This document shows, piece after piece, positions 37,841 to 38,125 of a stretch of 38,125 nucleotides of DNA. How positions within the stretch are numbered: the first letter of the stretch is position 1; every line of letters begins with the position of its first letter. The position numbers and the translations under genes are program-made. The stretch lies in contig JAJRZQ010000020.1 in NCBI GenBank assembly GCA_024275165.1, positions 1-38,125 on the forward strand, written 5' to 3'. The notes under the pieces are model-generated. The model saw nothing but the letters and a program-made list of their open reading frames with translations. It was not told where the DNA came from and searched no databases. The DNA comes from a bacterium (GTDB lineage Bacteria; SAR324; XYD2-FULL-50-16).

Positions 37841-37984
37841 CCCAGCACAAGCCTTTCTTTCTTGTAAAAGGCTTATCTGTTGTTTTTAAGATGATTTTCG
37901 ATTTGATTTCCCGATCATTTTTTATGCCTTTGCGAGATAAATCCGATGAAAAGGCCCTGAGAACAAGCATTTATTAGCTATACG

Positions 37985-38118
37985 CCCCCAAGGGTGCGAA
38001 AGGGCGGGCGGCGCAAATCACTGAGGCATCGAAACACCACCCGAGGCGGGGTCGCGGCGTGCCGCTCCCAGAAAGGAACCGCCTCGGGAATAAATCCAAT
38101 GCCTCCGGCGGCTGGGGG
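37985..38118. repeat. Nested palindromic element or structured RNA
   Basis: Four perfect, concentric dyads: CCCCCA/TGGGGG (37985-37990 with 38113-38118), GAGGCAT/ATGCCTC (38023-38029 with 38099-38105), CCCGAGGCGG/CCGCCTCGGG (38040-38049 with 38079-38088) and GCGGC/GCCGC (38054-38058 with 38061-38065). A side stem TGCG/CGCA (37995-38015) fits in the left bulge. The whole folds into one long branched rod of about 134 bases. It is G+C-rich unlike its flanks. I could not match it to tRNA, SRP, 6S, RNase P, tmRNA or a riboswitch I know. It may be an interspersed repeat or a noncoding RNA; strand is not determined. Confidence 0.5.
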
Positions 38119-38125
38119 TTGAAAA

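Follow-up and report, generated by a model that had tools for sequence, protein, structure and literature searches.

A probable REP/REPIN- or MITE-like mobile hairpin repeat at the end of a SAR324 contig

REP sequences and REPINs, which are associated with RAYT (Y1) transposases, are among the closest known systems to the repeat described here (PMC3116915, PMC3733652, PMC8266576). REP sequences carry a GTAG or CGTC tag at the foot of the stem (PMC3733652), and REPINs are described by their features as inverted doublets of REP sequences (PMC3116915). The window analyzed here, a stretch of 38,125 nucleotides, is the whole of contig C8 of a 2.69 Mb genome in 47 contigs (G000; contigs of this genome are numbered C below), and the contig stops at 38125 inside a repeat. 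We conclude with good confidence that the window ends in a small mobile hairpin repeat, non-autonomous and REP/REPIN- or MITE-like, rather than in a single RNA gene. The features at this end are as follows.

37972–38125, no strand assigned: segment of a repeat element rich in hairpins, truncated where the contig ends and with an uncertain left boundary; its support is the jump in G+C and the matches on other contigs of the genome.
37985–37990, no strand assigned: CCCCCA, the outer 5′ arm of the first-pass annotation; its pairing with 38113–38118 is doubtful because C18 offers the latter arm a closer complement.
38023–38029, no strand assigned: GAGGCAT, arm of a 7-bp stem with ATGCCTC at 38099–38105, seen in the window copy only.
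38040–38088, no strand assigned: hairpin A, CCCGAGGCGG (38040–38049) with CCGCCTCGGG (38079–38088), inner GCGGC/GCCGC.
38054–38058 and 38061–38065: the inner 5-bp stem, GCGGC with GCCGC, around a loop of just 2 nt.
38098–38125, plus strand: the conserved module, cut off, with the tag A-ATGCCTCCGGCGGC followed by the 5′ arm TGGGGGTT of hairpin B and its loop.
38113–38118, plus strand: TGGGGG, the outer 3′ arm of the first-pass annotation, more probably forming the 5′ arm of hairpin B, whose CCCCCA partner in C18 lies beyond the contig end.
36090–37808, minus strand: the neighboring 572-aa ORF, with the element some 180 bases upstream of the ORF start.

The first-pass annotation had described this end as four concentric perfect stems (6, 7, 10 and 5 bp) in a G+C-rich element beside A+T-rich sequence. 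The stems are present at those positions, and the G+C content is 68% in the element and 36% in the adjoining 200 bases on the left. That such nesting is unlikely by chance holds in part. The best concentric chain (stems of at least 5 bp, loops of at least 3) amounts to 23 bp and was reached by 4 of 300 dinucleotide shuffles (mean 14.1), and the minus strand folds with a z score of −2.55 (1 of 200 shuffles folds as well), whereas the plus strand gives a z score of −0.29, with 71 of 200 shuffles folding as well. The nested-stem observation is real but modest. It had also been taken as closed at both ends, which it is not, as the contig ends inside the repeat. The last 28 bases of the window are identical to bases 8519–8546 of C18, which continues with TGGGGGTTGAAAACCCCCAAACCCC to a complete stem-loop; here TGGGGGTT pairs with AACCCCCA 3 nt further on, followed by AACCCC. 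Because C18 completes hairpin B in this way, the 3′ arm of the outer stem finds a closer complement past the end of the window. A partner for the 7-bp stem was found in none of 10 other copies when up to 110 nt upstream were searched with one mismatch allowed (three copies have less than 110 nt upstream). With the 7-bp stem missing from paralogs and the outer arm pairing elsewhere, the paralogs lend no support to the four-stem nest as one designed structure. Hairpin A is kept with compensatory differences in C47 (CGAGGCGG/CCGCCTCG), C5 (CGGGCAGG/CCTGCCCG) and C27 (GGGCAGG/CCTGCCC), as a search for own-genome copies with such changes, proposed in the first-pass annotation, was meant to reveal, and the 10-bp stem is a real hairpin.

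Further copies were identified throughout the same genome. The sequence ATGCCTCCGGCNG occurs exactly 11 times, versus 0 in reversed controls, with copies on C3, C5, C8, C17, C18, C27, C28 and C47; tandem units measure 126 bp on C3 and C27 and 175 bp on C47. With the C28 copy as query, 26 own-genome matches were retrieved at E up to 5, among them a related series, GGGGTC-hairpin-CCGCGGAGCATATT, then a hairpin in place of A, on C12, C13, C16, C21, C22, C29, C41 and others. Its C29 copy runs from TTAACTCAGCG to CGCCGGATTAA over approximately 260 bp with inverted ends. Matches link the window to C27 (27 bp, 93%), C5 to C27 (108 bp, 90%) and C27 to the C13 copy (78 bp, 90%), so that by this chain of similarity the window copy is tied to the related series via C5 and C27. 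The window copy itself, with one end missing, displays no clear terminal inverted repeat. On C30 (133166–133196), head-to-head tag variants, ATGCCTCCGGTGG ... CCACCGGAGGCAT, form one perfect hairpin, apparently just past a stop codon. Another repeat family, whose ends resemble GGAACCTCTGAAAAACTCC / GGAAACTCTGAAAAACGCGGAGTTTCC, is present at C41:10400–11300 and C16:53900–54500 and also at loci L181 and L030; on C41 it seems to have been inserted into a first-family copy.

The conserved module, missed by the first-pass annotation, comprises the 12-nt tag TGCCTCCGGCGG, a perfect stem-loop and RACCC. Sixteen genomes, namely the own genome and 15 others picked for having hits, were searched with the counting pattern TGCCTCCGGCRGN{1,2}YNNGGG, with overlapping matches counted and with a variable gap that may count one place twice. 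Matches were counted in Desulfoluna limicola (193), UBA7700 (152), S. aerotolerans (112), Myxococcota KLAP81 (82), Victivallis (54), Oscillibacter (39), a Clostridia MAG (28) and the own genome (9); all 16 genomes gave at least 5, and reversed controls gave 0–2. The strict pattern of tag, stem and RACCC was found in at least 119 stretches of genome contigs, the carriers among the matches listed being Desulfovibrionaceae, Desulfoluna, Myxococcota, SAR324, Sandarakinorhabdus and relatives, Bacillota and Victivallis, plus one record each from Verrucomicrobiota and Spirochaetaceae, where MAG contamination is possible. The first-pass annotation had likened the stretch TGCCTCCGGCGGC to interspersed repeats of deltaproteobacterial genomes, and the pattern matches there bear out this link. 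Within the own phylum the distribution is patchy: 7 of 52 genomes contain any match, and only the own genome, G028 and G029 contain more than three. Genomes of the own family yielded only isolated core matches, with flanks resembling ordinary coding sequence. Together, the own-genome copies and the matches in other phyla support the earlier proposal of a mobile-repeat copy, and the finding named in advance as fatal to it, that no other copy or homolog exists, did not materialize. The module is also present in four stretches of viral contigs (IMG/VR, L161–L164), a possible transfer route; a blastn comparison of the element with plasmid and phage sequences returned no match.

Outside the tag, pairing is preserved while sequence varies. 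The 7 nt after the tag find a complement within 38 nt, one mismatch allowed, in 165 of 192 distinct segments, compared with an average of 84 (maximum 96) when arms were swapped between sequences and 29 (maximum 38) when the downstream sequence was shuffled. Forty different arms occur among the tagged segments, and the stem is followed mostly by ACCCC, AACCC or AATCCC. In Bacillota RGIG5631 (L144), several different stem-loops stand in a row after one tag, each followed by AACCC or GACCC, as if the stem + ACCC unit could multiply on its own.

Arrangement and context also point to mobility. Neighboring cores within 400 nt were convergent in 21 cases, divergent in 2 and in the same direction in 15 (212 cores, 123 loci); inverted doublets occur mainly in Desulfovibrionaceae, Desulfoluna and Sandarakinorhabdus relatives and were not seen in most other lineages. 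Between the same two genes, UBA7700 and strain DV carry the element in an orthologous intergenic site that is empty in UBA12339, where the genes nearly abut, although loss instead of gain is possible at this sole clean empty site. Terminal inverted repeats surround a short non-coding body in the elements of G029 and in the own-genome C29 copy. Both TARAAGCGCTGTGATTTA-like inverted ends were found in 8 of 12 fetched G029 loci, with the tag directly after the left end; by inspection, 4 of these 8 copies have TA on the outer side of each end.

Candidate mobilizing enzymes were sought by domain. Neither Y1_Tnp (PF01797) nor the IS630-type DDE_3 (PF13358) had a match in the own genome, an absence that does not amount to proof because that genome is 98% complete. 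Among the 15 other carrier genomes, Y1_Tnp was present in 6 and not found in 9; of the 23 matches listed, 8 loci were inspected, and none had a core within approximately 1.5 kb. With no own-genome Y1_Tnp and no core near the inspected loci, a link to RAYTs is unsupported. The stretches read at the G029 end-repeat sites contained no IS. The elements may be fossils.

The first-pass annotation had offered an undescribed structured RNA as its alternative. That the four nested stems form a regulatory RNA or RNA gene would agree with the minus-strand folding and with hairpins kept through compensatory changes, yet the hairpins are all that speaks for it. The Rfam search, at gathering and relaxed thresholds, retrieved only tRNAs in one flank; paralogs lack the 7-bp stem and give the outer arm another partner; and copies are scattered, present or absent, arranged in tandem arrays and inverted doublets and, in relatives, flanked by terminal inverted repeats, with no fixed gene context. 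We regard such an RNA as quite unlikely. An assembly artefact at the contig edge, for which the position of the element at the last contig bases and the similar breaks near copies on C3, C12, C16, C18, C27 and C47 might be cited, is very improbable, given interior copies on C5, C17, C28 and C29 and in the complete Desulfoluna limicola chromosome; the contigs break near copies because repeats cause breaks. Inspection by eye revealed no box or gene of an attC site, CRISPR array or group II intron.

The placement of the cores raises another explanation, namely a host-kept gene-end element, either a transcription terminator or an mRNA 3′-end stabilizer, multiplied for its usefulness. Gene positions were taken from a small home-made gene caller, and cores at locus edges (18 in Solidesulfovibrio, 6 in Desulfoluna) were left unclassified. 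Cores lay inside genes in 2 of 89 cases in Solidesulfovibrio and relatives, versus 85% of random positions, and in 1 of 51 cases in Desulfoluna, versus 76%. Consistent with a gene-end function, 58 of 69 classifiable intergenic cores of Solidesulfovibrio lie behind the stop of a codirectional gene at a median of 35 nt, and none of these 69, nor any of the 44 in Desulfoluna, is placed between the starts of two divergent genes. What comes after the stem, however, is RACCC and not a T run; just 23 of the 44 intergenic Desulfoluna cores lie behind a codirectional stop, and the same gene pair does without the module in UBA12339, all of which renders this explanation unlikely. Ten cores were looked at in Myxococcota, 6 of them unclassifiable, and ORF clusters of the flanking regions contained no protein consistently neighboring the module. 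At Solidesulfovibrio loci (e.g., L063, L079, L149, L156), the tag is preceded by a purine-rich (GA) tract whose length varies, and the complement of this tract comes after the inverted partner.

In the preferred reading of a mobile hairpin repeat, the conserved unit consists of the tag TGCCTCCGGCGG, a perfect stem-loop with variable yet complementary arms, and RACCC. Units stand alone, pair up as inverted doublets, form tandem arrays or lie immediately inside the terminal inverted repeats of elements approximately 80–260 bp long. We infer that the unit is moved in trans by an enzyme that recognizes the inverted ends, the single strand in its folded form, or both, and it may spread between lineages through horizontal transfer. 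Copies would persist chiefly between genes, frequently after stop codons, where they presumably are least harmful. Several copies have TA at their outer ends, a hint that a TA-targeting (IS630/Tc1-mariner-like) transposase serves the SAR324-group versions. Should modules sharing this 12-nt tag prove mobile in the different phyla, a factor acting in trans would have to recognize the module in each of them. Such a mobile module would also account for assembly breaks in many draft genomes and would caution against annotating such hairpins as RNA genes. The tag is apparently undescribed: searching the literature by sequence and topic gave no description of the motif, and one may exist elsewhere.

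Among known systems, intrinsic terminators share with the module a G+C-rich hairpin shortly behind stop codons; the module differs in lacking a T run and in its RACCC tail, doublets and inverted ends. Like MITEs, the elements are approximately 80–260 bp long, with terminal inverted repeats and TA at some outer ends, but the part conserved across phyla is the internal hairpin module, not the terminal repeats, and no partner IS was found. The resemblance to REP sequences and REPINs covers a short hairpin outside genes, with an unpaired tag and in many copies, as well as inverted doublets, tandem clusters and occurrence in several phyla, and the module is likewise repetitive, extragenic and palindromic. 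It departs from them in its tag (TGCCTCCGGCGG/RACCC, with the foot GGCGG ... RACCC, instead of GTAG or CGTC), in the lack of a linked Y1 transposase (Y1_Tnp was found neither in the own genome nor in 9 of 15 other carriers) and in the location of the SAR324-group module inside longer elements with inverted ends. We tentatively suggest that the module might represent a third tagged REP-like class besides GTAG and CGTC, in which the 12-nt tag, perfect hairpin and RACCC are carried as one prefabricated module by unrelated miniature elements of several phyla and would be read by a non-RAYT mobilizing enzyme.
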